Assembly (NCBI RefSeq): GCF_002007645.1
Contig: NZ_CP019791.1
Coordinates: forward strand, 3,898,593-3,962,592
Direction of reading: 5' to 3'
DNA: 64,000 bases
From: Anaerohalosphaera lusitana
Lineage (GTDB): Bacteria > Planctomycetota > Phycisphaerae > Sedimentisphaerales > Anaerohalosphaeraceae
Positions within the stretch are counted from its first letter, which is position 1. Each line of letters opens with the position of its first letter. The notes beneath the pieces were generated by a model, which was given only the letters and a program-made list of their open reading frames with translations, had not been told where the DNA came from and made no database searches. Below are positions 13,042-39,460 of this stretch, piece after piece. Made by a program: the position numbers and the translations under genes.

Positions 13042-14418
13042 CTAAGCGAAAAAGTATTTTTCTATTTCCTCACATGCCTTTTGGGTCAGGTTAGGTCGCC
13101 TTTTCAAGTAGTGGTCCGTCACGCCAGCTACCCTGTGGCCTAACAGGAATCGAACCTCGTCCAATGTGCAGTTGGCATCGACACCCGCAGTTTGACATGC
13201 ATCCCTTATATGCTCGAATTTCACAGCATGGTCTACCTCGGCCTTTTTTCGCAATTTACGCCAGATTGAACCTATGCCATGAGCACAATAGGGTTTTCCA
13301 AGAAAGGTAATGAAAAGAAATTCAGAGTCATGGGGGGCTTCGGCCTGTGCTCGCTCTATTGCCCGAACCGTGCGATCCCATAAGCATGCCACCCGTGGAA
13401 CGCCTGTTTTACCCCTGTCCATTACAAGGGTCTTCTTCTGCAAATTGATATACGCCTTCTTCAGGTCACAAACATCCTGTGGGTAAAGCGCAGCATTAGC
13501 TGCCAACAAAAGGATGGCTTTCTCTTTTGCGTTCGCCAAGGCGAATATCTTTTGAAAGTCTTCCCTGTGGATAGGTTTCGGATCAACACTTGCCCGCTCA
13601 GGATAGACGAACTTCTTGCAAAGCACCAAAACATCTTCAATGTCCTTAGTATATTCGACAGCATCAGATTTGAGAGCATACCTTAATATGGTTTTTATCT
13701 TGTCGAATCGATGCTTAATCCAAGTGGGGCTATATTCATGCTTGTTAAAAAGTTCATATAAAGCATCCTGATAGCGTTTGATGTCACTAAGGCAAACGTC
13801 ACGAACAGTCTTGCTCTTGGCAAGCTTGCAAAACTGCTCCCACCATCTCTTCGAATCATCGTATTCTTGCTGTCTCAGTGGCTTCTTGGTTCGCTTTAAG
13901 TAAATCTCGCCGATTTCGTGAAGAGTTAAAGGCTTTGGTAATGGAGTTAGCTTGTGCAGTTCTGCAAATTCAGGTATGCCTAGTTTTTCGGCGACAATAG
14001 AAGGAGGGTTATTTGAAATCAAACTCCTGGCTATATCCCAACCAATTTCCTCGTTGATTTTCAAGTCAACCGGCGGGTCTATATACTCTTCACAGTCAAT
14101 GGAGGCTCTCCATTCCCCCCATCCATCCTTGTTATTCAAGATTCGCTGATGGACTTGGTTCAGAACACTTTCCTTGTCATCATCCTGATCAAACACAATG
14201 GAGGTGGTTTTCTTCTCTCGCTCGTCTCTCCAACGCCTGAACCGTCGCAAGGCATTGATGTAGTCGTCTGGAGCACCAAAATGGAGTCGTGGAACGCCCT
14301 CAGTGCGATAATGGGTATTGTAAAACCCATTGTCATCACAACTAAGCCCAACAAGAGGTCGCCCCCGTTCATCGGAGACGTATTTCGGAGGCCTCCCTCG
14401 CTTTCGTTTTTTCCGCAT
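13042..14418 (-). CDS. Tyrosine recombinase/integrase, non-canonical active site
   Basis: About 458 residues, starting at ATG 14418 after AGGG. The N-terminus carries a KKRKRGRPPK basic segment. A central SAM-like core-binding region (residues about 165-270) precedes the catalytic domain. The last part keeps RGKTGVPR (active-site Lys region), FLLGHR (His) and VTDHYLKR (nucleophile Tyr). The expected box I Arg is replaced in AALYPQDVCDL, and the box II H-x-x-R appears as EHIRD, keeping Arg but not the His. Such variants are familiar in planctomycetes from memory, but activity is uncertain. Its start lies about 100 bp from the tRNA-Ser fragment, which suggests it integrated the left element there. 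Confidence 0.8.
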   Translation of the reverse strand: MRKKRKRGRPPKYVSDERGRPLVGLSCDDNGFYNTHYRTEGVPRLHFGAPDDYINALRRFRRWRDEREKKTTSIVFDQDDDKESVLNQVHQRILNNKDGWGEWRASIDCEEYIDPPVDLKINEEIGWDIARSLISNNPPSIVAEKLGIPEFAELHKLTPLPKPLTLHEIGEIYLKRTKKPLRQQEYDDSKRWWEQFCKLAKSKTVRDVCLSDIKRYQDALYELFNKHEYSPTWIKHRFDKIKTILRYALKSDAVEYTKDIEDVLVLCKKFVYPERASVDPKPIHREDFQKIFALANAKEKAILLLAANAALYPQDVCDLKKAYINLQKKTLVMDRGKTGVPRVACLWDRTVRAIERAQAEAPHDSEFLFITFLGKPYCAHGIGSIWRKLRKKAEVDHAVKFEHIRDACQTAGVDANCTLDEVRFLLGHRVAGVTDHYLKRRPNLTQKACEEIEKYFFA

Positions 14419-14497
14419 AAACACCCTCGTAAGCTAAAAAATGAACCAAGGGGAATATAGCAGAAATGAGGGAATAAGTCTATGAATAAGTTTATAA

Positions 14498-14522: not shown

Positions 14523-14585
14523 AACGGAGGAGGAGGGATTCGAACCCCCGGAGGCTTGCGCCTCAGCGGTTTTCAAGACCGCCAC
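14523..14585. repeat. Attachment site copy (left), tRNA-Ser 3' fragment
   Basis: It is identical to 39358-39420 over 63 bp and contains the tRNA discriminator, acceptor 3' strand, T arm, variable arm and the whole anticodon stem-loop. It lacks the 5' part of the tRNA, so it is not a functional tRNA gene. Identity stops at 14586. Confidence 0.95.
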
Positions 14586-14586
14586 T

Positions 14587-14787
14587 GCAAACACGCAAGG
14601 TGTGGAAGACACAGGACTTACGGCAATAGATGGTGACCGCTTACAAACCAGCTTACAAATTCGTGCTGCGTGTGAGCTGCCGCTGGAGCTGGCTGAAGTG
14701 ATCAGGGCGTGGCCGGAGCTGCCGGAACACGTCAGACTTGCCGTGATGGCACTGGTCCGCTCGGCAGTCCCGGAGTCTTCAGGGTAA
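14587..14787 (+). other. Orphan integrase C-terminal tail (read through only in the excised circle)
   Basis: From the attachment site the frame used by the integrase is open for 66 codons to a stop at 14785-14787. It encodes an acidic-hydrophobic tail with segments AIDGDRLQTSL and LPLELAEVIRAWPELPEHVR followed by LAVMALV. In the chromosome this tail has no start of its own, apart from a poor upstream ATG at 14482 that lies outside the element. When the element circularises, codon 502 of the integrase joins this frame directly. I infer that it belongs to the integrase of the circular form. Confidence 0.6.
14638..14659 (+). promoter_or_regulatory. Candidate integrase arm-type sites (left arm)
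   Basis: A 22-bp sequence with two CTTACAAA copies separated by CCAG is identical to 39163-39184 at the other end of the element. It lies about 53 bp inside the left attachment site, a typical distance for arm binding sites of tyrosine integrases. Confidence 0.5.
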
Positions 14788-21911: not shown

Positions 21912-22640
21912 TCAGTAGCTCCAGTCTTCGTGGGCTAGGGGTGACTGGTTGAGGCGGTCGCGGTGGAGTCGCCACTGCGGCATTAGCTTGTCCATCAAGT
22001 CTATGAACCGCTCATCGTGGTGCCGTTCGATCAGGTGGACCATTTCGTGCACCAGGATGTACTCCAGGCATATGGTTTCCTTCTTGGCCAGCTCCAGGTT
22101 GAGCCAGATCCGCCCGGCTTCTGCGTTGCAACTGCCCCAGCGGGTCTTCATCTTGCGGATACGCCAGTCACGGACAACCACGCCTACCTTGCCCTGCCAC
22201 TTTTCCAGCAGTGCCGGGACCTGTTCCTTGAGCCGGTCCCTGTACCAGGCGTTGAGTACTTCCTGCCGTCTTTCGCGGCTGGTACCGGGCCTGATCCTCA
22301 GCTCCATGGTCGTGTTGTTGGGGAGTGCCACCTCTGCCGGTCCATCATGCTCAACCACATCGAGCCGGTACCGTCTGCCCTGGAAGTAGTGGCTCTCACC
22401 TGTGACCATCTCCCGCTGTGACTGACGGACCTGATGGTGGAATGACTGCTGCTGCCGCTTGATCCAGCCAAGCCGGGAGACCACTGCCAGCCGGATGGCC
22501 TCACGGCTCAGATGTTCCGGGGCAGCCACGCGGATCCTGCCGTCGGGCGGATAGACACCGACATGCAGGTTTTTGATGTCCTTTCGGACCACCTGGACCG
22601 CCAGGCCGCGAATTTCGATGTCGTAGCGTTCAGTAGTCAC
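21912..22640 (-). CDS. YgjP-type M48 metallopeptidase domain protein
   Basis: The protein is 242 residues and matches the YgjP/DUF45 family (PF01863). The zinc-binding HEMVH is at residues 198-202, with a third ligand candidate at His207 or His208. A conserved TRWGSC segment lies at 166-171. Family members often sit next to type I restriction genes, and their exact function is not established. It is the last gene of the leftward hsd operon and its start overlaps the end of hsdR by 11 bases, suggesting coupled translation. Confidence 0.9.
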   Translation of the reverse strand: MTTERYDIEIRGLAVQVVRKDIKNLHVGVYPPDGRIRVAAPEHLSREAIRLAVVSRLGWIKRQQQSFHHQVRQSQREMVTGESHYFQGRRYRLDVVEHDGPAEVALPNNTTMELRIRPGTSRERRQEVLNAWYRDRLKEQVPALLEKWQGKVGVVVRDWRIRKMKTRWGSCNAEAGRIWLNLELAKKETICLEYILVHEMVHLIERHHDERFIDLMDKLMPQWRLHRDRLNQSPLAHEDWSY

Positions 22641-25600
22641 GCTGATTCTTTACCAGTTCAAAGACCTGATCCAGCAGTTCGCCGTCGCCATCATTATTGT
22701 CACTGATAACACCCTTGATAATGTTTCGTACCTGCTTTTTCTTCATTGCATTGGCTCGCCAGTTGTCCGGTCGGTTCGTTCTGACGGCCTGGTCGATCCT
22801 GAGTGCAAGCTCCTCATCGCCGTCCAGGTTGTCATAGAGTGCCCTGCAGCCAGGTGTTGTGATGCTGGCCGGGTAGCTAGCATGCGTCTGCGGGCTGACA
22901 ACCTTCTCAGCCAGCTCCCTGACCTTACGCAGGTACTTGCGGTAGTCCAGAGCCTGCTTTTTCCGCATAATGATCAGGTCGTCCAGCAGTTCCGACATTT
23001 TTTCATAGTACTTGGGGTTTACCGCCATCTCATCGATGATCAGTCGTCTGACGTTGTTCTCGATGGTCTCGGCCACCGCCTCCTGGTTGTTCCTGATGCC
23101 TTCGGGCAGCTTGTCTATCGCATCCATACCGGTATTGACGATCAGCTCCACCAGGCTCTTATCATCGAAGGCGGATATGCTCTCGCTGTCCTCGGCCCGG
23201 ATGTACTGATCCAGCAGGTGCCGCATGGCTGGCTCGTACATCTTCATGTCGATGTAGTCGCCGCTGTTTAGCTTGACCTCTTGGCGGACGCTTTCGTAGT
23301 GCTTGACCTCCTCGGCAATCTCGGCCGCCTCTTCTTCGCTGTAACCGGCCTGGGTCATCTCGTTGGCAAGGTTCGCATAGGCCCGCACAAAAGAGCTGGT
23401 CAGCTTATACAGAGTGATCCGCTTTGATTCGTTGTCATCGACAGACTCGCCGTCCGCGTTGTCTGCCGCAACAAAGAACCGCAGATATGCCTCGGTATCA
23501 TAAGGCGGTTCAACCGGTTCACACAGGGCCTTGATCGACTCTCGAACTTCCTCCAGACGCTGCTTGCCCTTTTCCAGCCTGTCGGTGAGCAGACCGTCCA
23601 CGTCCTCGCGGTCGTAGCCCTCGAACGCACCGCCGGTATAGTCATTGATCGATTTTTCCAGCGACCTGAACAGGTCCTTGTAGTCTATGATGTGCCCGTA
23701 CTCCTTGTCATCGCCGTCCAGCCTGTTGACCCGGCAGATCGCCTGGAAGAGGCCGTGATCCTGCATGTGCTTGTCGATGTACAGGTATGTCGCTGGCGGT
23801 GCGTCAAAGCCGGTCAGCAGCTTGTCCACCACGATCAGCAGCTTCATCTGACCTGGCTGCTCGATGAACCGCTTTTTGACCTCCTGCTCGAACAGCTCGG
23901 TCTTGTACATCGCGGCTTCTTCAGACTCATCAAAGTGATCCGCCAGCATCTTGCGGTAGATTTTGTATTGCAGCAGCTTCTGGGTAAGTCCTTCACCTGT
24001 CTCTTCTCCCTTGATGTCTGAGGGGTTTGGCTTGTACGAGGTTATAATCGCACAGTTGCCTTCCAGCCCGCCGTCACAGAACATCTGGTAGAACCGGCAG
24101 GCCGAGTAAATGCTGTCCGAGACCAGCATTGCATTGCCGCGACCGCTGAGAAGCCGGTCCTGCGTATCCATGTCAAGGAGAACATCGTTGACGATCTTCG
24201 AGAGCCTGTCACGCGAGCTGAGCACCTTCTGCATGGTGCCCCAGCGGCGTTTGAGCTGTGCCCTGGCGTAGTCGTTGAGGCCCCTGGTCTTGGCCTCGAA
24301 CCACTTATCCACCTTCTCCTGCGATGTCAGCCTCTGGTCGATATCGCGTGCCTCGTATTGCAGGTCCAGCACGACGTTGTCACGGACCGCCTCGTCATAC
24401 TTGTACGTGTGAATATACGGCCCAAAAATCTCCAGGCTGGTCTTTTTGTCCCTGCTCAGCAGCGGGGTGCCGGTAAAGCCGATAAACGTTGCGTCCGGCA
24501 GAAGCGTCTTCATCGCCTCGTGCAGCTTGCCGGACTGGGTGCGGTGGCACTCATCGACAAACACGAACAGCTCGCCCCTGGCCTTGAATCCTTTAGGCAG
24601 GCTCTTGCGGATGTCTTTGAGGTATTCCTTGATGTCCTTGTCGCTCAGGTCGTCCTGCCTGCCGAACTTATGTATCAGCGAACAAATCAGCCATTCGGTG
24701 TTGCTGTTGAGCACACTGACCATGTCCGCCCCGCTCTTTGTGCGATAAATATCTTCCTGGACACCTTTGAACACTTTTTCGATCTGCTCATCCAGCTCGG
24801 TGCGGTCCGTGATCACCAGGACCCGCGAACCGGTGACTTTTTCGCGGATCCACTTGGCCAGCCAGACCATTGTCAGACTCTTGCCGCTGCCCTGGGTGTG
24901 CCAGATTATCCCACCCTTGCGGTCCCGCACATACTCCTGTGCCGCCCGGACGCCGAAGTACTGGTTGTGCCGACAGACCTTCTTGACACCCGAATCGAAC
25001 ACCACGAAATCATGCATCAGCTCCAGCAGCCGCTGCTTACAGCAGAGCTGCGCCAGTTCCTTCAGCAGTGTGTTCTCGCCAGGCACCGGTTCTGCCCCAG
25101 CCTCCTTCCACTGCAAATAATATTTTTGTTTCGTCTCAGTCGTACCATAACGCAGACCCTCTGTCTCATTTCCCGCCATCACAAACTGCATGGCGGCGAA
25201 GAATGGCCTGATAAAATCTTTCTTCTGGTTGTCCAGATTCTGCCTGATGCCCTCACTGACCGCCACTGTCGACCGCTTGAGCTCCAGCACGCCCACCGCG
25301 ATGCCATTGATATACAGCACCACGTCCGGCCGCTTGTCGTGTGTGCCCCTGATCGTGACCTCCTCGGCGACGCCGAAGTGATTGGCCTCTATGTCCTGCC
25401 AGTCGATCAGGTTAACCGTCTTCGTCTGCTCGCCGATGTCGGTCCTGACCTTCACACCGTACCGCAGCAGGCTGTAAACTTCCATATTTGCATCGTAAAG
25501 CGTCCTGCTGCCGCCGACGGTCAGAGCCTTTTTAAGCTTTTCCAGCGTCCTTGAGACGGTTCTCTCGTCATGGCCCTGCTTTTTGAGCCAGGTCTTGAGC

Positions 25601-25728
25601 TTATCCTCCATGACGTTGCTGTTGTCCTCACGATCCTTGAGAAAGCCCAGATAGCTGTAGTCCAGCTTGTTGAGAAAATACTCGACCACCCGTCTTTGCG
25701 TCTGATATTCCCGCTCACCGACATTCAT
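22630..25728 (-). CDS. hsdR: Type I restriction enzyme R subunit (nuclease-translocase)
   Basis: The protein is 1032 residues, a usual length. The N-terminal PD-(D/E)XK nuclease has D135 (RPDVVLY) and ELK at 149-151. The helicase-translocase follows with Walker A TQGSGKS at 277-283, DECH at 392-395 and FTGTP soon after. The last 350 residues are helical and should contact the methyltransferase core. In type I systems it cuts unmodified DNA after ATP-driven translocation. It is fourth in the operon, 22 bases after the PD-(D/E)XK gene and overlapping the metallopeptidase gene. Confidence 0.95.
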   Translation of the reverse strand: MNVGEREYQTQRRVVEYFLNKLDYSYLGFLKDREDNSNVMEDKLKTWLKKQGHDERTVSRTLEKLKKALTVGGSRTLYDANMEVYSLLRYGVKVRTDIGEQTKTVNLIDWQDIEANHFGVAEEVTIRGTHDKRPDVVLYINGIAVGVLELKRSTVAVSEGIRQNLDNQKKDFIRPFFAAMQFVMAGNETEGLRYGTTETKQKYYLQWKEAGAEPVPGENTLLKELAQLCCKQRLLELMHDFVVFDSGVKKVCRHNQYFGVRAAQEYVRDRKGGIIWHTQGSGKSLTMVWLAKWIREKVTGSRVLVITDRTELDEQIEKVFKGVQEDIYRTKSGADMVSVLNSNTEWLICSLIHKFGRQDDLSDKDIKEYLKDIRKSLPKGFKARGELFVFVDECHRTQSGKLHEAMKTLLPDATFIGFTGTPLLSRDKKTSLEIFGPYIHTYKYDEAVRDNVVLDLQYEARDIDQRLTSQEKVDKWFEAKTRGLNDYARAQLKRRWGTMQKVLSSRDRLSKIVNDVLLDMDTQDRLLSGRGNAMLVSDSIYSACRFYQMFCDGGLEGNCAIITSYKPNPSDIKGEETGEGLTQKLLQYKIYRKMLADHFDESEEAAMYKTELFEQEVKKRFIEQPGQMKLLIVVDKLLTGFDAPPATYLYIDKHMQDHGLFQAICRVNRLDGDDKEYGHIIDYKDLFRSLEKSINDYTGGAFEGYDREDVDGLLTDRLEKGKQRLEEVRESIKALCEPVEPPYDTEAYLRFFVAADNADGESVDDNESKRITLYKLTSSFVRAYANLANEMTQAGYSEEEAAEIAEEVKHYESVRQEVKLNSGDYIDMKMYEPAMRHLLDQYIRAEDSESISAFDDKSLVELIVNTGMDAIDKLPEGIRNNQEAVAETIENNVRRLIIDEMAVNPKYYEKMSELLDDLIIMRKKQALDYRKYLRKVRELAEKVVSPQTHASYPASITTPGCRALYDNLDGDEELALRIDQAVRTNRPDNWRANAMKKKQVRNIIKGVISDNNDGDGELLDQVFELVKNQRDY

Positions 25729-25750
25729 TTGTGCATCTCCTCAAATATCC

Positions 25751-26782
25751 TCAATTCGCTCCGACCTCTTCGCCCGGCAGGGGCAGGTTGTACAGGTCGC
25801 AGTACCAGCGTGCCCAGTCTTGCAGGGTCGGGTCGGCTGTCTGCGTTGCTGCGGCGATTACGTCTGCTGATGTGAAGGTTCTAAATTTTTCGCTGTTGGC
25901 CGTCAGTTGGCAGTATGCGTCCATCGTTGCGTCGAGCATGCGGTTGCCGGGGTGTCTTACTACCGAGAAGAACGCCCTTTCGAATTCGCAGGCCGGGTCC
26001 GCCTCCGCCGCAAGGCCCATCAACTGATTACGCCAGAGCTGGTTCATACCTCCCTTGAACGGACAACCCGCCTGAGAGTCCGCACCGGCAAAAAAGTCCC
26101 GGTTTGCCTCGGTCAGCTTCCAGTAGTTGAACTGCCGTTTGCTGTGATAGTAACAGACGTTCTTGTCCGCCAGTATGTCCGATAAGCTGCCCGTGCAGTC
26201 GTGGCATGCCTGTCTGCCGCCGCTCTTCGCCCCGCCGCAGGTGGTGAACTCGGCCTCTGTGAGCTTGTGCTCGATCAGCCACAGGCACAGCCTGCCGTCA
26301 TGGTCATAGTACGCTATCGCCATGTCCGAATCGGTGCCTGATGAAGGCCGCTTGTCGCCCAGGTATTTGTTCCAGTATTCTATCTGCCAGCCGTTGTCGA
26401 GCTTGTCGGTCGCAAGCCTTGCAAAGTCCGGCTTGATCTTCGCCAGCACCTGATCCGCTGAGCCGCTGATCAGCACGGGCAGGAACAGGTTGACATTCGC
26501 CGCCTGCGAGCTGGCCATGTGGTTGAAATACTGGTGCTCCCTGAACGGGAAACGCCTGGCGTGGGTTTTGAGCCTGTCCAATACCGGCGGGTAGACCGTT
26601 GCGTATGTGCCGTGCAGGCTCCTGGGCAGGATCGCATCGTATTCACGCTTGCCGTACAAGCCGGGCTCCCTGGTGATGTGCTTCCACTTCCAGTCGATCA
26701 GGTGCATCTGCATCTGCATCTGGAAATCATTCAGCGAACCCGCAAGCCGGTACTGCCTGTGGTTCTTTTCAAAAATTTTCAT
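25751..26782 (-). CDS. PD-(D/E)XK nuclease-like protein with Cys cluster
   Basis: The protein is 343 residues. A nuclease signature is suggested by GTDSDMAI (D151 and D153) and LWLIEHK (E171, K173). Six Cys residues at 166, 182, 193, 196, 210 and 240 follow or flank it, including CHDC, and could hold zinc or an iron-sulfur cluster. It resembles proteins called PGN_0703-type putative restriction endonucleases from memory. Its start overlaps the end of hsdS by 4 bases and hsdR follows, so it is embedded in the hsd operon. It may be a second nuclease or an accessory restriction factor. Confidence 0.75.
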   Translation of the reverse strand: MKIFEKNHRQYRLAGSLNDFQMQMQMHLIDWKWKHITREPGLYGKREYDAILPRSLHGTYATVYPPVLDRLKTHARRFPFREHQYFNHMASSQAANVNLFLPVLISGSADQVLAKIKPDFARLATDKLDNGWQIEYWNKYLGDKRPSSGTDSDMAIAYYDHDGRLCLWLIEHKLTEAEFTTCGGAKSGGRQACHDCTGSLSDILADKNVCYYHSKRQFNYWKLTEANRDFFAGADSQAGCPFKGGMNQLWRNQLMGLAAEADPACEFERAFFSVVRHPGNRMLDATMDAYCQLTANSEKFRTFTSADVIAAATQTADPTLQDWARWYCDLYNLPLPGEEVGAN

Positions 26783-27927
26783 ACCAGTCTCGTCCTTCCC
26801 GTCAGAAGTTCTGCCATCATGCCCTGCTTGATCTGCCTGGTCTTGTCCCGCCGATCCTCCAACGCCTCGATCTCCGCGTCCATGTCCGACAGAACCTCGG
26901 CTATGGCCCGCTGTTCCGCAACGTCTTCAGGTCCTGCAAAGACAAAATTCAAAAAGGTCGGTAATCTGAGAGAATCGACCGTTGCCTTCACAGTGTTCTT
27001 GAGGGCATACCGGCCAAAACTGTTGACCATAGCAAAGTAAACAAACTTACCACACGTCGATGACGAAAAATCGGATATCTTGTAGACCCGTTGGTGAACG
27101 TCAAAGCGACCATTTATGTAATGAAAAATCCCTCCAATGCCTCCCTCCCCTGGCACCAGAATTGCTTCTCCTTCATAGGAGTATGAATTTATGTGTTCAA
27201 CCGTTGCAGAGCGAACATAAAAGGGGTACTTCCCATCCTCAATTTTATCCTGGTTATTTCGGCTGCCGGTTTTTATATGGGCCAACTCCCCCAACCGCTT
27301 TGTTTGCCATTTTCCTGAGAAGCCGGGCAGGCGGGTTTTGCCGGTGAGCAGTTCGGCCATGGCGGCCTGCTTGAGGGCCCGCTTTTTGGCGATGAGCCTG
27401 TCCAGCGACCCGATCAGCGAATCCACATCCGACAACGCCTCCGCTATCGCCCGCTGCTCGGGGACACACTCAGGCACTGCTATTTTCATCTCCGAGAGCG
27501 TACTCATCGTAATGTAGGGTGTATTTCCAGCCTTAACTTCGACTCGAATCCGGTCTTGGAGATTTCGGTCAATAAACCATTTGCAAAAATGGATGTTGAC
27601 GCGGAAACCATTTAGTACATAGGTCCGCTGGTATGCATTAAATTTGCCTGCATAGTAATGAATATAACCGACATTCGCTCCATTACCTGATATCAAGAGA
27701 GCTTCTGTATCAAATGCAAACTTGTCAATCCGGTAAGGCTCGCGTGCACATGTGAAGAAAGGGTAATCCCCATCTTCGGCCATCGCGTTGGCATCAAGAC
27801 GGCCCGTTGTGATTCGTTCACAAATCGAGCCAAGTTCGATAACCTCCCAATCCTCAGGTATGACGCCGATCTCGGTGCGTTTATAGCCTGGGGGGACCTT
27901 GTCCGGGGTTGTATTCTGTTTAACCAT
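26779..27927 (-). CDS. hsdS: Type I restriction specificity subunit S
   Basis: The protein is 382 residues with two target-recognition domains (residues about 15-150 and 210-345), each closed by a long helix containing EQRAIAEALSDVD or EQRAIAEVLSDMD. The duplication is the usual HsdS architecture that reads a bipartite site. The first domain begins with KRTEIGVIPEDWEV, typical for the family. It overlaps hsdM by 8 bases. The recognised sequence cannot be deduced. Confidence 0.95.
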   Translation of the reverse strand: MVKQNTTPDKVPPGYKRTEIGVIPEDWEVIELGSICERITTGRLDANAMAEDGDYPFFTCAREPYRIDKFAFDTEALLISGNGANVGYIHYYAGKFNAYQRTYVLNGFRVNIHFCKWFIDRNLQDRIRVEVKAGNTPYITMSTLSEMKIAVPECVPEQRAIAEALSDVDSLIGSLDRLIAKKRALKQAAMAELLTGKTRLPGFSGKWQTKRLGELAHIKTGSRNNQDKIEDGKYPFYVRSATVEHINSYSYEGEAILVPGEGGIGGIFHYINGRFDVHQRVYKISDFSSSTCGKFVYFAMVNSFGRYALKNTVKATVDSLRLPTFLNFVFAGPEDVAEQRAIAEVLSDMDAEIEALEDRRDKTRQIKQGMMAELLTGRTRLV

Positions 27928-30367
27928 TGACGCTGACCCCCATCTTATCTAGGTGGACGTCGACCTTTTTGGTGAGCGTGGCGACCTGGTTGAAAATATC
28001 GGGCAGAGGCTCGGCGTACCGCTGTTCGAGTTCCTTGACGCGGCCTGCGAGTGTCTGGGTGAGCCTGTCGAGCTCGGAATCGACCGCCCGGCGAATGGAG
28101 GCGAACCACTTGTCCTCGACGGCGAGCGTCTTTATCTCGTCCTCGGTGAGCTCGGGGTATTTTGCCAGCACCTTCTCATCTAGCTGTGCCCGTGTGTCCT
28201 TGACCGCCTTTGCGGCGGTGGAGTCGGCGTTCATCAGTTTTTTGCACTTATTGAGTGCCCTGCGTTCGTCGGCTGCTTCGGGATCTTCTTTTATTTCCTT
28301 GAGCCTGGCGGTGATGCCTCCCTTGGTGACCTTGCCCTTGTCGTTTGTCGCATCTTCCAGGGGGCCCTCTTCGACGGTGTTTTCCTCGATGAACTCCTCA
28401 AGCTGGCGGGAGGCGGTTTCGTGTTCGGCCTGCATGTCCTCAAGGATGCCCTTCTCGACGGTGAAGAACCGCTCTATCAGCAGGTCGGGCGGCAGCAGGT
28501 CCATCTTGTACTTCTTGCGTTTGACGGTGAGGTCGGGCGTTTCCTTGATCTTGCGTTTTTTGTCGTCGATGATCCCGCGAGGCTGGGCGGCGTCTTTCCA
28601 GCCGTCGGCTGCTATCAGGTAGATGTCGTCCTGCATGGTGTCAAACCAGTAATCCATCAGCCGCTGATACATGTCGTAGGGGTCTATGAGGGAAAGCTGC
28701 TTGAACCGCTCTAGCAGGTCCTCGCTGAGCGTGCTGATGACGTCCCTGGGCTTTGCTCCGGCGTCAAGGTCCATCAGCATGGGTCTGTGCTTGCGGTGCC
28801 ATTTGCGGAAGATGGAGCGGACCTTGTCGGCGTACTCGGTGAACTCGGGGTGTTCGAGGATGGCGGTCTTGACCTGGGCGGGTTCGAGACGCGGTTCGCT
28901 GTAGCCGGGCCTGCCGTTGCGTTTGAACAGTGCCTTGCGGACGGTGGGGAAGACGTCCCAGTATTCGGATAGCTCGTCGATGTCTCGGTTGGGGATGCCG
29001 CCGTTGAGGTGTGCGTCCAGGTCGTGCACGTCCTCGGGCTCGCTGGAGTCGATGTATCGCGGGATATTGAGGTTGTAGTCGTTGGCCTCGGATGCGATCT
29101 CGTCCAGCGGGACCATGCGGGAGTAACGGGGGATCTCTGCGGCCCTGTTAAAGACGTCGACGATGCGATGAATGTCCTGCTCGCGGAGGCGGTTCTTGTT
29201 GCCGTCCTTGATGAAACCTTTGGAGGCGTCGATCATAAATATGCTCTCGCGGAGCTGGCAGTCTTCCTTGTCGATCATGATGATGCAGGCGGGGATGCCC
29301 GTGCCGTAGAACAGGTTTGCGGGCAGACCGATGATGCCGCGTATCAGGCCGCGTTTGATGAGTTTGCGGCGGATGTCTGCCTCCTTGTTGCCGCGGAACA
29401 GCACGCCGTGAGGCAGAATGATGGCACCTTTGCCCTTGCTCCTGAGGGAGGTAATCAGGTGCAGCAGGAAGGCATAGTCGCCGTTCTTGGCGGGCGGGAT
29501 GCCGTATTCGAACCGGCCGAACTGATCGTTTGCGGGATCGAAACCGCTGGTCCAGGACTTGGCGGAAAACGGAGGATTGGCGACGGCGAAGTCGAACTTT
29601 TTCAGGCCGCCGTCACCGTCCTTGAAGTGCGGGCTTGCAAGGGTATTGCCCCGCCACAGATCAGCCATGGGATGGTTGTGCAAAAACATGTTCATGCGTG
29701 CCAATGCCCAGGTTGCGTTGTCCATTTCCTGGCCGTAGATGGATATTCCCTTCGGTGCGTGGTCGGCCGCCTTGATCAGCAGTGAGCCGGAACCGCAGGT
29801 CGGGTCATAAACGGTATGCTTTTGCATTGTTTGTGGTCCTATACCGATGATGCTGGCCATGATGCGGGAGACCTCTGCGGGAGTGTAGAACTGGCCCTTG
29901 CTCTTGCCGGATTCGGTGGCGAAATTCCGCATGAGGTATTCATAGGCATCGCCGAGCAGGTCGTCGCCCTCGGCACGGTTTGAGCGGAAGTCCAGGCCGT
30001 CGAAGATAGCCACCAGCCGTGAGAGGCGGTCCTGCATTTCCTTGCCGCCGCCCAGTTTGGATTCATCGTTGAAGTCCGCCTGGTCGATCACGCCCTTGAG
30101 CTCGTTGGCCTCTGCGAGCCTGCCGATGATCTTGTTGATCTTGTCGCCGATCTCCTTGTCTCCCTTGAGTGCGACCATGTCGTCGAAACTGCCGCCCTGG
30201 GGCACCTCGATCAGGGCGTCCGGGTCGTTTGCATACTTGTCAGAGACGTACTTCATGAACAGAAGCGTGAGGATGTAGTCCTTGTATTGCGATGCGTCCA
30301 TGCCGCCGCGAAGCTCGTCGCAGCTTGACCAGAGGGAGCTGTAGAGTTGTGACTTTTTCAGGGCCAT
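27920..30367 (-). CDS. hsdM: Type I modification methyltransferase subunit M, long form
   Basis: The protein is 815 residues, much longer than the common 500-residue HsdM. The N-terminal helical domain is followed by the SAM motif DPTCGSG at 188-194 and catalytic NPPF at 264-267, so it makes N6-methyladenine. From about residue 500 there is a charged, partly coiled-coil extension ending near residue 815. Start ATG 30367 follows GGAAAG. It is the first gene of the five-gene operon hsdM-hsdS-nuclease-hsdR-metallopeptidase, which reads left. Confidence 0.95.
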   Translation of the reverse strand: MALKKSQLYSSLWSSCDELRGGMDASQYKDYILTLLFMKYVSDKYANDPDALIEVPQGGSFDDMVALKGDKEIGDKINKIIGRLAEANELKGVIDQADFNDESKLGGGKEMQDRLSRLVAIFDGLDFRSNRAEGDDLLGDAYEYLMRNFATESGKSKGQFYTPAEVSRIMASIIGIGPQTMQKHTVYDPTCGSGSLLIKAADHAPKGISIYGQEMDNATWALARMNMFLHNHPMADLWRGNTLASPHFKDGDGGLKKFDFAVANPPFSAKSWTSGFDPANDQFGRFEYGIPPAKNGDYAFLLHLITSLRSKGKGAIILPHGVLFRGNKEADIRRKLIKRGLIRGIIGLPANLFYGTGIPACIIMIDKEDCQLRESIFMIDASKGFIKDGNKNRLREQDIHRIVDVFNRAAEIPRYSRMVPLDEIASEANDYNLNIPRYIDSSEPEDVHDLDAHLNGGIPNRDIDELSEYWDVFPTVRKALFKRNGRPGYSEPRLEPAQVKTAILEHPEFTEYADKVRSIFRKWHRKHRPMLMDLDAGAKPRDVISTLSEDLLERFKQLSLIDPYDMYQRLMDYWFDTMQDDIYLIAADGWKDAAQPRGIIDDKKRKIKETPDLTVKRKKYKMDLLPPDLLIERFFTVEKGILEDMQAEHETASRQLEEFIEENTVEEGPLEDATNDKGKVTKGGITARLKEIKEDPEAADERRALNKCKKLMNADSTAAKAVKDTRAQLDEKVLAKYPELTEDEIKTLAVEDKWFASIRRAVDSELDRLTQTLAGRVKELEQRYAEPLPDIFNQVATLTKKVDVHLDKMGVSVNG

Positions 30368-35123: not shown

Positions 35124-35348
35124 ATGAATTTACAAAAACTGATAAATGCTAAACAGCTAGGCGAATTGCTGAGCCTGTCCAGAAGGCAGGTATTCAGGCT
35201 CAACTCGTCCGGCAAGATTCCGGCACCCCTGAGAATTGGGGGGAGTGTCCGCTGGAACAGCGAAGAGGTGCACGCATGGATTGACAATGGAGCACCCGCA
35301 AGACAGCAGTGGGAAGCCATGAGAACGGCAGGAGGAGCAGTAGTATGA
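35124..35348 (+). CDS. AlpA/excisionase-like helix-turn-helix protein
   Basis: About 74 residues, start ATG 35124 with GGAG upstream; an earlier ATG at 35097 is less well placed. The protein has the MerR-like winged helix-turn-helix of the AlpA/Xis class: LINAKQLGELLSLSRRQVFR, then GKIPAPLRIGGSVRW and EEVHAWID. Such small proteins act as excisionases or as activators of the integrase gene. It opens the rightward module that ends in the integrase. Confidence 0.85.
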   Translation: MNLQKLINAKQLGELLSLSRRQVFRLNSSGKIPAPLRIGGSVRWNSEEVHAWIDNGAPARQQWEAMRTAGGAVV

Positions 35349-35466: not shown

Positions 35467-35976
35467 ATGACGGATATGTATATCAAGATTTTCCCGGAAG
35501 TCATGGAGCTGCCCGAGCTAAGTCATTCGGCAAAGCTGGTGTACTGTGCTGTACTAAGTTTTCGCGGCAGGGCTCTGAAAATGAGCAATGCTTGCATTGC
35601 GCAGCTAACAGGCAGGAGTGTAAGGACAGTGAAACAGACATTGACTACCCTGAGGTCACTTGGACTTATCTACCTCGAAAACGAGCAAAGCCGGTACAGA
35701 CGAATCTATCCAACAACTGAAATTGAAGAATCTACTGGGGAAAAACTACGCCCCTACTGGGGCAATTTAGCGCCCCTACTGGGGAAGCTAGTTACCCACA
35801 GAAGGAAAGAAGGTAATAGAAGTAATGCAGGAAGTGCTGGTTATGAGTCTTCCTGTGAAGTACCTGTGGGTGATGATTCAGAATTGCTGGGCATACCGGA
35901 ACTCTACCCCACGCAGGGAGAGCTTGAAGAGCTGGGATTGCATGAAGGCAAGGAGGTCATAGATGAGCAAGGATGA
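35467..35976 (+). CDS. Winged-helix replication-associated protein
   Basis: About 169 residues, start ATG 35467 after GGGGAGGTG. The first 85 residues form a winged helix (LSHSAKLVYCAVLSF, CIAQLTGRSVRTVKQTLTTL, GLIYLEN) like the N-terminal domain of plasmid and phage replication initiators. The C-terminal half is low in structure. Its stop region overlaps the start of the primase-helicase gene by 14 bases. It could recognise the origin of the element and load the next protein. Confidence 0.7.
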   Translation: MTDMYIKIFPEVMELPELSHSAKLVYCAVLSFRGRALKMSNACIAQLTGRSVRTVKQTLTTLRSLGLIYLENEQSRYRRIYPTTEIEESTGEKLRPYWGNLAPLLGKLVTHRRKEGNRSNAGSAGYESSCEVPVGDDSELLGIPELYPTQGELEELGLHEGKEVIDEQG

Positions 35977-37777
35977 ACTTCGAATGGACAGGGAAGTCCT
36001 GGTGAGAGAACTAGAGGAAGCGGGGGCAGAGTTTCAGGGCAGCAGTGATCAATGCCGCTGCCCCTTCCATGACGACCAAAATGGATCGGCCGGTGTCTAC
36101 CAGGAGAACGGTGTCTGGCGGTTCAAGTGTCACGCCTGCTATGCCAGCGGCGACGTCTTTGACGTTATTGCCAGACGGGACGGCCGGGAACTCCGGGATG
36201 TCCTGGCCGAGCATTGTGGCAGGCCGGTTAAGCCCGCCATAGAGCCGGGAAGGCCGGGAAGGCATAAACACACCACCCCACAGGTAAAGACAAGCACAGC
36301 GGCGGCTGACGGCCGTCAAAGGCCAGCTGGTAAGTTGTTTAAGACACTTGCCGAGCTGGAGGCTGGACTGCCAGGGGAAATCACCGGAAAACATGAATAC
36401 AAGAGTGCTTCCGACGATCCGGTTCATCTGGTATATCGCATCGAAACCAGTGATGGCAAGGATTACCGGCAGGCATGTCCTTGTCCAGGCGGCTACCGGC
36501 TGGCTGCACCAGACAAACCATGGACACCCTATAATCTTCCGGCCGTCGTGGAAGCCGATGAAATTGTCATGGTAGAGGGCGAGAAGGCTGCAGATGCTTT
36601 GATTAAGCATGGCATAACTGCCACGACGACCGCTGGCGGTGCTGGAAAGTCAGACCAGACGGATCTGACGCCCCTGCAAGGCAAGATGGTTACAATATGG
36701 CCGGACAATGATCCGGCGGGTATCAGGCATGCCGAGCAATTGCAGGCTGTACTACTAGAATTGAAATGCAAAGTACTCCGGCTCGACCCGGACAAGCTGG
36801 ACCTTCCCAGTAAGGGCGATGCGGTCGACTACATCGAGAGACTGCAGGATGATCAGGACATAGCTGCAGAAATAGACAAGGTGCTGGAGACGGCGGAACC
36901 AGTCCGGCCGTCTGGAAGTCTACGTCAGCATCTTCAGCAGATAAGGTCTGGTGAGCTGCAGGCAGTTCCGACGCCTTTTGAGGTCCTGGATAAAATAGCC
37001 CAACCGTTGCTGCCCGGCAAGGTGTGCCTTCTTTGCGGCAAGCCGGGGAGCGGCAAGAGTTTTTTCACCATGCAGTGCATGCTGCATTGGGCTGAAAACG
37101 ATATTCCGTTTGCCGGGCTGATGCTTGAGGAGAGCAGAGATTACCACCTCAAACGAGCACTGGCTCTTCTTGCAGACGAGCCTAAAATCCTAGATCACAA
37201 CATCCTTAGCCAGGGAGAACTTGACATCGACAGCCTCTATGACAGTCATGCCGACCGCCTGGACCGGCTGGCCTCTTATATTGACACCATGTCCACTGAA
37301 GTGCCGGACTACAATAAAGTCCTGAACTGGGCACGGGAACAGGCGGCCAATGGAAAGAAGGTGCTGGCCATCGATCCGATAACAGCCGTGAACAAGACTG
37401 AAGATGTCTGGACTGCTGACCAGAAGTTCATTGGTGAGCTACTGCGTATCCTGGATGAACATGGGGCTGCCGCATTGATCGTCACGCATCCCAAAAAGGG
37501 GAAAACGGTTCAAAGCCTGGACGATCTTGCAGGCGGAGCAGCATGGCAGAGATTCAGCCAGACTGTTTTATGGCTTCAACTTTATGACGAAGGGAAAAGG
37601 TTCCTGATCGGGCCAGATAAGACGCTACAAAATATAAACGCCCGTCTTCTCGTGGCGAAGGCCAGGGACGGCAAGTCTGGACTCAGTACTGCGTACAGAT
37701 TTGGAGAAGGATCTGTGAAGTTCAGCGAAATCGCTGTGATCACGGGCAAAGCAAAAGATAAAGGGAATGCGGCGTAG
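35963..37777 (+). CDS. Primase-helicase: CHC2 zinc finger, TOPRIM and RecA-like ATPase
   Basis: The protein is 604 residues, start ATG 35963 after AAGGAGG. Residues about 30-80 form a CHC2-type zinc finger (CRCPFHDDQNG, then FKCHACYASGDV). A TOPRIM domain follows around residues 195-255 (DEIVMVEGEKAADAL with the Glu, and TIWPDNDPAG as D-x-D). The C-terminal RecA-like ATPase begins at about 350 (LLCGKPGSGKSFF Walker A, and VLAIDPITAV Walker B). The combination is used by plasmids and phage satellites to prime and unwind their own DNA, so the element probably replicates when excised. Confidence 0.85.
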   Translation: MSKDELRMDREVLVRELEEAGAEFQGSSDQCRCPFHDDQNGSAGVYQENGVWRFKCHACYASGDVFDVIARRDGRELRDVLAEHCGRPVKPAIEPGRPGRHKHTTPQVKTSTAAADGRQRPAGKLFKTLAELEAGLPGEITGKHEYKSASDDPVHLVYRIETSDGKDYRQACPCPGGYRLAAPDKPWTPYNLPAVVEADEIVMVEGEKAADALIKHGITATTTAGGAGKSDQTDLTPLQGKMVTIWPDNDPAGIRHAEQLQAVLLELKCKVLRLDPDKLDLPSKGDAVDYIERLQDDQDIAAEIDKVLETAEPVRPSGSLRQHLQQIRSGELQAVPTPFEVLDKIAQPLLPGKVCLLCGKPGSGKSFFTMQCMLHWAENDIPFAGLMLEESRDYHLKRALALLADEPKILDHNILSQGELDIDSLYDSHADRLDRLASYIDTMSTEVPDYNKVLNWAREQAANGKKVLAIDPITAVNKTEDVWTADQKFIGELLRILDEHGAAALIVTHPKKGKTVQSLDDLAGGAAWQRFSQTVLWLQLYDEGKRFLIGPDKTLQNINARLLVAKARDGKSGLSTAYRFGEGSVKFSEIAVITGKAKDKGNAA

Positions 37778-37915: not shown

Positions 37916-39460
37916 ATGGCAAGTATATTCAAACAAAAGTACACGAGTAAAGACAAGGACGGCAAGTCCGTCACCAAACAGAGCAAGAACTGGTATATCG
38001 ACTACAAGGGTCCTGACGGCGTCCGCAAGCGGGTGAAGGGCTTTAAGGACAAGGCAGCTACCAGGCAGCTTGAGGCCAAGCTGGAGAAGGAGGCAGAGCT
38101 GGCGCAGGCGGGCATTGTTGACCGGTTCAAGGAGCACCGTGATAGGCCCCTGGCGGAGCATCTGGAGGATTTCAAGTCACATCTTGAGGCCAAGGGCAAT
38201 ACGCAAAAGCATGCACAGCTTGTATACGGCAGAGCCAGCAAGGCGGTCGAGGGGTGCAAGTTCGTCGTGTGGGACGATATAAGCGCCAGCCGGGTGCAAA
38301 CCTACCTTTCCGAGCTGCGACAGGACAGAATGGTCGAGAAAACCCGCAAAACCCGAACCAAGGGAAAGACAAAGACTGAGACCAAGCTGCAACGCGGCAT
38401 TAGTCCCCAGACGTTCAACTTCTATATGCAGGCCATTCAGCAGTTCTGCCGCTGGATGGTTCAGGATCAGCGTGCACAAGCGTCCCCGATCGAGCACTTA
38501 TCGAAGATCAGCACCAAGACCGATCGCAGGCACGATCGACGGGCACTTGAACCGGATGAAATACGAACCCTGCTGCAGACTACTACGGCAAGTGACGACC
38601 GTTACAAAATGTCCGGACCCGATCGGGCTCTGCTGTATCGCCTGGCAATGGAAACCGGGCTGCGAGCATCAGAGATGAGAAGCCTGACTGTTTCGAGCTT
38701 CGATTTTAAGGCCAACACTGTCACCGTTGAAGCTGCCTACTGTAAGAACCGAGAAGAGGCCACCATTCCGCTGAAAAGTGATACGGCGGCCCTTCTGGAG
38801 GACCAATTCACTGGCAAGCTTCCTCAGGCAGTGGCTTTCAAGATGCCGAATGAGAATTACCTGGCCAAGATGCTCAGGGCCGACCTGGAGAATGCAGGCA
38901 TTAAGTACGTCGACGATTCGGGACGTTACGTGGACTTCCATGCCCTTAGGCACACTGCAGGCAGCCTGCTGGCGGCTAGCGGGGTTCACCCCAAAGTCGC
39001 CCAATCCATCATGCGGCACAGCGACATCAATCTGACAATGGGAAGATATAGCCACATATTCCGCGGCCAGGAAGCCGATGCGGTTAAAAGTCTGCCAGAC
39101 TTCTCGCTGGAAATGTCACAGGCACAAAGAGCGACCGGCACCGATGGTGAAATGGGCTCCGGCGCTTACAAACCAGCTTACAAAAAACTTACAAAAAACC
39201 CTTACTCTCGACGTCCTGCATCGTCATCCATTGTCACTGACAGAGACAAAACAAACCCTGACGCGTCCGAAACAAGCCCCTCTCGTAAGTCCAGCAGTTG
39301 GGCAGGTTTAGGCATGAAAAAAGCACCGATATCATTGTTTGACACCGGTGCTTGCCGAACGGAGGAGGAGGGATTCGAACCCCCGGAGGCTTGCGCCTCA
39401 GCGGTTTTCAAGACCGCCACCTTAAGCCACTCGGTCACTCCTCCAGTTAACTGTTTTTAG
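37916..39460 (+). CDS. Tyrosine integrase of the 24.8-kb element
   Basis: The protein is 514 residues as integrated. Core-binding domain about residues 78-190. The catalytic domain has R250 (METGLRASEM), a Lys near 277-287, H342 and R345 (FHALRHTAG), H368 (RHSD) and nucleophile Y378 (GRYSHIF), so all key residues are present. Residues 391-514 form a tail outside the fold. The last 34 codons run antisense through the attachment repeat and tRNA-Ser. In the excised circle the frame would change after codon 502 and gain a 66-residue tail encoded at 14587-14784. It has its own promoter and structured leader. Confidence 0.95.
   Translation: MASIFKQKYTSKDKDGKSVTKQSKNWYIDYKGPDGVRKRVKGFKDKAATRQLEAKLEKEAELAQAGIVDRFKEHRDRPLAEHLEDFKSHLEAKGNTQKHAQLVYGRASKAVEGCKFVVWDDISASRVQTYLSELRQDRMVEKTRKTRTKGKTKTETKLQRGISPQTFNFYMQAIQQFCRWMVQDQRAQASPIEHLSKISTKTDRRHDRRALEPDEIRTLLQTTTASDDRYKMSGPDRALLYRLAMETGLRASEMRSLTVSSFDFKANTVTVEAAYCKNREEATIPLKSDTAALLEDQFTGKLPQAVAFKMPNENYLAKMLRADLENAGIKYVDDSGRYVDFHALRHTAGSLLAASGVHPKVAQSIMRHSDINLTMGRYSHIFRGQEADAVKSLPDFSLEMSQAQRATGTDGEMGSGAYKPAYKKLTKNPYSRRPASSSIVTDRDKTNPDASETSPSRKSSSWAGLGMKKAPISLFDTGACRTEEEGFEPPEACASAVFKTATLSHSVTPPVNCF
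39163..39195 (+). promoter_or_regulatory. Candidate integrase arm-type sites (right arm)
   Basis: Three CTTACAAA copies lie here; the first 22 bp are identical to 14638-14659. They are inside the integrase coding sequence, where they encode AYKPAYKKLTK, about 165-195 bp from the right attachment site. Confidence 0.5.
39317..39353 (-). terminator. Terminator of tRNA-Ser inside the integrase gene
   Basis: AAGCACCG and CGGTGCTT form an 8-bp stem. On the minus strand the stem is followed by TTTTTT. It lies 7 bp downstream of the tRNA 3' end and is supplied by the element, within the coding sequence of the integrase on the other strand. Confidence 0.75.
39358..39420. repeat. Attachment site copy (right), within tRNA-Ser
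   Basis: It is identical over 63 bp to 14523-14585. It covers the tRNA from the anticodon stem to the discriminator plus two bases. The dyad of the anticodon stem-loop is the likely crossover region, as for many tRNA-targeting tyrosine integrases. Confidence 0.95.
39360..39444 (-). tRNA. tRNA-Ser(UGA)
   Basis: The cloverleaf is complete: acceptor GGAGGAG/CTCCTCC, anticodon stem GCGGT/ACCGC with loop CTTGAAA (anticodon TGA at 39408-39410), a long variable arm (GAGGCGCAAGCCTC), and T loop TTCGAAT. The discriminator is G and no CCA is encoded. Its 3' part was restored by the integrated element. Confidence 0.95.

Follow-up and report, generated by a model that had tools for sequence, protein, structure and literature searches.

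In this study we analysed a window of 64,000 nucleotides from Anaerohalosphaera lusitana (contig NZ_CP019791.1), which contains a mobile element integrated at a tRNA-Ser gene, and describe the unusual design of its tyrosine integrase gene, int. The attachment site of the element, attP, almost certainly lies inside int, so that integration cuts a conserved C-terminal piece from the encoded protein, as indicated by the in-frame junction and by uncut genes on circular relatives. It is a bacterial self-trimming integrase whose nearest known counterparts are the archaeal suicidal integrases, although it is built differently. The severed piece is a predicted helical hairpin, and we put the probability that this anatomy holds and that the hairpin also has a role in the direction of recombination at roughly 0.6. 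An earlier note on this DNA had read the frame crossing as a change of the integrase C-terminus upon integration, and our analysis supports that interpretation.

The attachment site inside the integrase gene

The following features of the window define the cut.

37916-39460, + strand: tyrosine integrase gene int in its integrated (trimmed) form, 514 residues (open reading frame (ORF) analysis, PF00589 match)
14523-14585, no strand: left att repeat, the displaced 3' part of tRNA-Ser (63-bp exact direct repeat)
39358-39420, no strand: right att repeat, within both the int ORF and the intact tRNA-Ser gene (63-bp exact direct repeat)
39359-39445, - strand: tRNA-Ser(TGA), the target gene, intact and antisense to int (ARAGORN)
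14586-14787, + strand: severed C-terminal tail of Int, 66 residues plus stop (in frame with codon 502, conserved in relatives, predicted helical hairpin)
14586-39357, no strand: body of the integrated element, between the att repeats

The claim that the int frame is open into and through the 63-bp repeat was confirmed exactly, at the coordinates listed above for both copies. The left repeat contains just the 3' part of the tRNA-Ser gene, and the complete tRNA-Ser overlaps the right repeat. The int ORF leaves the right repeat and stops 12 codons further on in host DNA, which gives the protein the end LSHSVTPPVNCF; the chromosomal form is thus 514 residues long and ends in host sequence after codon 502, as had been stated. 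Both the N-terminal and the catalytic domain of this trimmed Int are complete and only its final 12 residues are host-coded. The Phage_integrase family (PF00589) matches residues 211-381 (Pfam, E=1.5e-23), and the catalytic residues R250, K277, H342, R345, H368 and Y378 are invariant among relatives.

Joining the element ends in silico at the repeat reproduced the circle form that the earlier note had proposed, an Int of 568 residues in which codon 502 is followed by 66 new residues, including AWPELPEHVR, and a stop at 14785-14787. The tail had been described as open without a start inside the element. This holds, and the sole addition is an ATG at 14482, which belongs to the host DNA outside the element. 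Because of this, the integrated state in the window could make the tail only within a host-started ORF of 101 residues, and in the window only the circle would place the tail behind a start codon that belongs to the element.

From Int residue 396 to the tail stop the int frame is open, while the other two forward frames carry 5 and 8 stops, and the frame was open in 0.5% of trials with Markov-resampled versions of this region. Taken alone, the open frame across the window junction is suggestive and short of proof. An ordinary integrase frame might run into a tRNA gene by chance, with the left-end ORF being noise, and in one short case such read-through from an int adjacent to its att site is indeed easily obtained. 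The relatives of the element bear on this explanation.

Uncut circles and in-frame junctions among relatives

We fetched 98 loci from contigs of viruses and genomes, and in only two of them, L115 and L130, do int and tail form one ORF. Their parent contigs are a 43,208-bp virus from IMG/VR and one of 15,590 bp that had been assigned to a Paceibacterota genome bin, the latter probably being a misbinned element. In each contig the two ends are identical over 127 bp, as is typical of circular sequences, and we therefore regard both as closed circles. The ORF crosses a core resembling the 3' half of a tRNA-Arg gene, again antisense, and ARAGORN found no complete tRNA in either locus. A contig of another sample (L211) also encodes this virus integrase over its final 121 residues, at 100% identity. 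Judged by their sequences, these are attP forms that exist in nature.

The circles also decide whether the tail could be a small gene in its own right, for instance one for an excisionase, that is expressed alone. In favour of this, integrated copies have the open frame standing by itself at their left end, in some cases with a start provided by the host. However, the tail frame in the window begins in host DNA, without any start within the element, and the single ORF formed by int and tail in L115 and L130 rules an independent gene out, so that we give this explanation next to no weight. Of the longer ORFs matching the tail that were examined, the majority are unrelated proteins or host reading frames that continue into attL, and an integrase domain is absent from all of them. 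Plasmid and phage collections contained only distant integrases, none of which covered 80% of the query.

Related integrases are found across the same order, the best being 46-59% identical, and nearly all of them are in genomes named as Planctomycetota. In most of the relatives read closely, the int ORF runs open into a tRNA gene, which may be that of Ser, Lys, Arg, Thr, Cys, His or Asp. Searching with the 67-residue tail gave matches in 101 of 148 relatives at the loose threshold of E<=1, mostly in short frames, with a best match outside the window of 2e-8. As our model predicts, contigs with both int and tail mostly carry them on one strand, the tail lying upstream of int.

For a frame test we located the repeated core of each int/tail pair and compared the frames of int and tail; the frame was not used in choosing the pairs. 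The two frames agree in all 28 pairs that have both ends and an alignable repeat. These pairs span 22 combinations of tRNA, orientation and reading phase and use all three phases of the tRNA core; they include tRNA-Ser(TGA) in two phases as well as elements with int in the direction of the tRNA itself. Assuming independence and a probability of one third each, the chance of 22 agreements is about 3e-11. The genome of the window has a second element of the same kind (about 44 kb, with a 60-bp tRNA-Tyr repeat) that is also in frame. The new host-coded ends of Int range from 3 to 84 residues and follow no pattern.

The earlier note had pointed to the junction frame in related circles and to the presence of the tail in homologous integrases as the places to look. 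In both respects its claims stood: the two independent closed circles are open across the junction and all 28 pairs of element ends are in frame, and homologues do have the tail, as their C-terminus when uncut and, when cut, as a conserved orphan ORF at the far end of the element. Together with the resampling and the selection on the tail described below, the frame agreement and the uncut circles rule out a chance open frame, to which we would assign hardly any probability. As a side observation, ARAGORN calls a tRNA-Ala at both element ends in L219 (8640-8937) and L220 (6291-7017), and the target tRNA therefore appears to be duplicated there rather than displaced.

The severed hairpin and its possible role

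The 28 tails vary in the way expected for a protein that is maintained. Over 30 codons, pN (nonsynonymous differences) is lower than pS (synonymous differences) in 375 of 378 pairs, with means of 0.40 and 0.72, and the closest pairs show a pN of 0.14-0.19 at a pS of about 0.5-0.8. The entropies of the three codon positions are 1.18, 0.80 and 1.61, third positions being the most variable. This pattern shows that the tail is under purifying selection at the protein level, from which it follows that the tail is translated and useful in some state. In a sample of 294 genomes from across Planctomycetota its profile finds matches in 76, many of them reaching 1e-8 or better, compared with 2 of 148 genomes in the phylum of a control genome, where the matches are weak (about 0.004). 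One metagenome-assembled genome labelled Zipacnadia also carries the tail and is possibly misbinned.

We folded the L130 Int and the tail from two separate alignments, one of whole integrases and one of tails. AlphaFold2 gives the L130 Int a confident strand-rich N-terminal domain and catalytic part; the predicted template modelling score (pTM) is 0.52 and the placement of the domains is unreliable. Residues 409-531 fall below 50 in the predicted local distance difference test (pLDDT) and are followed by helices at 536-547 and 550-567. The tail alone, in a 62-residue model, forms the same hairpin with helices 29-40 and 43-61, mostly at a pLDDT of 88-97. A linker of about 120 residues between the catalytic domain and the hairpin is thus predicted to be disordered, and it is this linker that attP encodes. 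The same stretch contains probable arm-type sites, and the element has a candidate for a directionality factor.

39163-39195, + strand: probable arm-type sites CTTACAAA, three copies (39165, 39177, 39188), inside the int ORF (L130-like geometry)
14638-14659, + strand: probable arm-type sites CTTACAAA, two copies (14640, 14652), inside the tail ORF (repeat copies)
35124-35348, + strand: small DNA-binding protein of AlpA/HTH_17 type, candidate excisionase (PF12728 E=8.6e-7, PF05930 E=1.2e-5, both above cutoff)

In L130 the arm repeats CTTACA(A/C)A lie at -198, -186, -175 and at +102, +114 from the core start, and the copies in the window correspond to these. The arm repeats thus flank the core in both arms and are probable binding sites. 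Positions 14638-14659 are a 22-bp exact copy of 39163-39184 read in another frame, the two encoding AYKPAYK and RLQTSLQ. Since the copies are read in different frames, it seems to be the DNA sequence itself that is kept, as for binding sites.

We propose that attP has been built into int where the gene encodes the disordered linker between catalytic domain and C-terminal hairpin. In the circular element a single ORF would yield the full-length Int of 568 residues. Recombination at tRNA-Ser would cut this ORF in the core, producing the 514-residue Int with its short host-coded end and leaving the hairpin behind as an orphan ORF at the opposite end of the element. We infer that full-length Int acts in the circle, where the hairpin most likely promotes integration, and that the trimmed form acts in the integrated state, where loss of the hairpin might make Int weaker or dependent on an excisionase. 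As the cut removes the hairpin from Int, integration would change the very enzyme that carried it out and so favour staying in. Excision might be performed by trimmed Int with the AlpA-like factor, which is plausible given the surviving catalytic domain and the AlpA-like gene of the element, or by full-length Int supplied in trans. The suggestion of the earlier note that the cut acts as a switch, through differences in activity or stability between the two forms, appears plausible. In one version of this idea the integrase family would control its own directionality, one gene providing first an integration-proficient full-length Int and then a trimmed Int specialised for, or restricted in, excision, with recombination itself as the switch; we put this forward tentatively.

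It might also be that, with a true frame crossing and a tail that functions in the circle, tail loss is a tolerated side effect, with attP placed in int only because the linker DNA is convenient and with trimmed Int being about as good as the full-length protein. The complete catalytic domain of trimmed Int would fit this, as would the candidate AlpA-like directionality factor, which resembles the situation in ordinary systems, and the patternless host-coded ends. However, the tail and its frame have been kept over many changes of tRNA target and phase, which would be needless for a dispensable end, and we therefore consider a mere side effect rather unlikely.

Another possibility is that the tail marks Int for degradation or inhibits it, so that little Int is present in the circle, until integration removes this tag. 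There is a parallel in the integration-dependent immunity of mycobacteriophage BPs, where attP lies in the repressor gene gp33 and the end that is lost is an ssrA-like degradation tag (PMC4557955). In both cases attP is inside a coding gene and the integrated product is shorter at its C-terminus, but the ORF crossed here is that of the integrase and not of a repressor. Moreover, an ssrA-like AA or a pair of hydrophobic residues at the very end was seen in none of the 28 tails, so that degron models are not favoured, and the conserved part is an internal structured hairpin rather than the extreme end. We found no support for an ssrA-like tag and regard a tag of any kind as improbable, more so than the side effect.

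Several observations weigh against our proposal of a self-cut integrase with a directional hairpin. The role of the hairpin is one that we infer, and the tail matched no known fold or family in Pfam, NCBIfam, PHROGs, PDB sequences or the Foldseek PDB search. In G134 int has decayed to a fragment, and although the frames of this pair agree, the ORF made by joining ends at the junction without reading through. An exception beyond the 28 pairs is L222 (G207:C104, 6047-7642), where a more distant int and the tail motif adjoin each other on either side of a tRNA-like core but are out of frame; a hybrid site formed by tandem elements, an error in sequencing or decay could account for this. Furthermore, L153 has a weak tail match and no alignable repeat, and the core matches are short (13-18 bp) in L175, L184 and L186.

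Related systems and neighbouring genes

Integrases that split their own gene are known from archaea, and a 2021 review describes self-disrupting recombinases as exclusively archaeal (PMC8371274). In these suicidal integrases (SSV1/pTN3/pT26-2 type, PF16795) the catalytic domain and the N-terminal part end up on separate fragments, which are reported to be inactive (PMC8371274). The window integrase resembles them in having attP within int and in being split by integration into a tRNA gene. It differs in that integration leaves residues 1-502, which include the whole catalytic domain, in one piece and removes only the C-terminal hairpin. The planctomycetal family also has PF00589 and bacterial hosts, and Phage_integr_3 (PF16795) is absent among the Pfam matches of the window Int up to E=1. 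No bacterial precedent for a self-cutting integrase was found in the open-licence literature, and an earlier report may exist elsewhere. The self-cutting of int, said to be limited to archaea, thus has a bacterial version that is common in mobile elements of Planctomycetota, and its design is a different one, in that integration spares the catalytic domain and takes away a C-terminal module.

In ordinary tRNA-targeting tyrosine integrases with lambda-type att sites, int and attP are neighbours. The catalytic fold, the arm-type repeats on either side of the core and the restoration of the tRNA target by the element are shared with these systems, whereas here attP, including its arms, is int coding sequence. 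The arms and core therefore double as linker-coding sequence under a frame constraint. The two Int forms offer a natural pair for probing what makes integration directional. An orphan tail ORF at one end and int at the other could serve as a signature for mapping mobile elements of Planctomycetota; the tRNA-extended C-termini of int and the orphan tails are both likely to be miscalled by automatic annotation.

Further features of the element are the following.

22630-25728, 26779-27927 and 27920-30367, - strand: type I restriction-modification genes HsdR, HsdS and HsdM
35963-37777: primase-helicase
39321-39353, - strand: terminator-like hairpin for the tRNA-Ser transcript, inside the int ORF and element-borne (consensus scan only, not above chance)

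The region 21912-30367 on the - strand holds the complete HsdR/HsdS/HsdM set together with a YgjP-like metallopeptidase, and the 15-kb circular L130 element likewise has ORFs resembling type I restriction-modification genes. The terminator-like hairpin lies just beyond the 3' end of tRNA-Ser, and the element seemingly supplies a replacement terminator for the tRNA. A second PF00589 integrase of 460 residues, unrelated in appearance, is found just outside the left att repeat (13042-14424, - strand); since it adjoins this repeat, the site may hold tandem elements. Finally, 26 kb to the left of the window there is a relic of the right attP arm of the element with the first part of the core (G000:C1:3872298-3872384; L005, about 1508-1580). 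It lies near a transposase-like ORF pair (L009, 931-2114) and suggests an earlier or decayed copy of the element.
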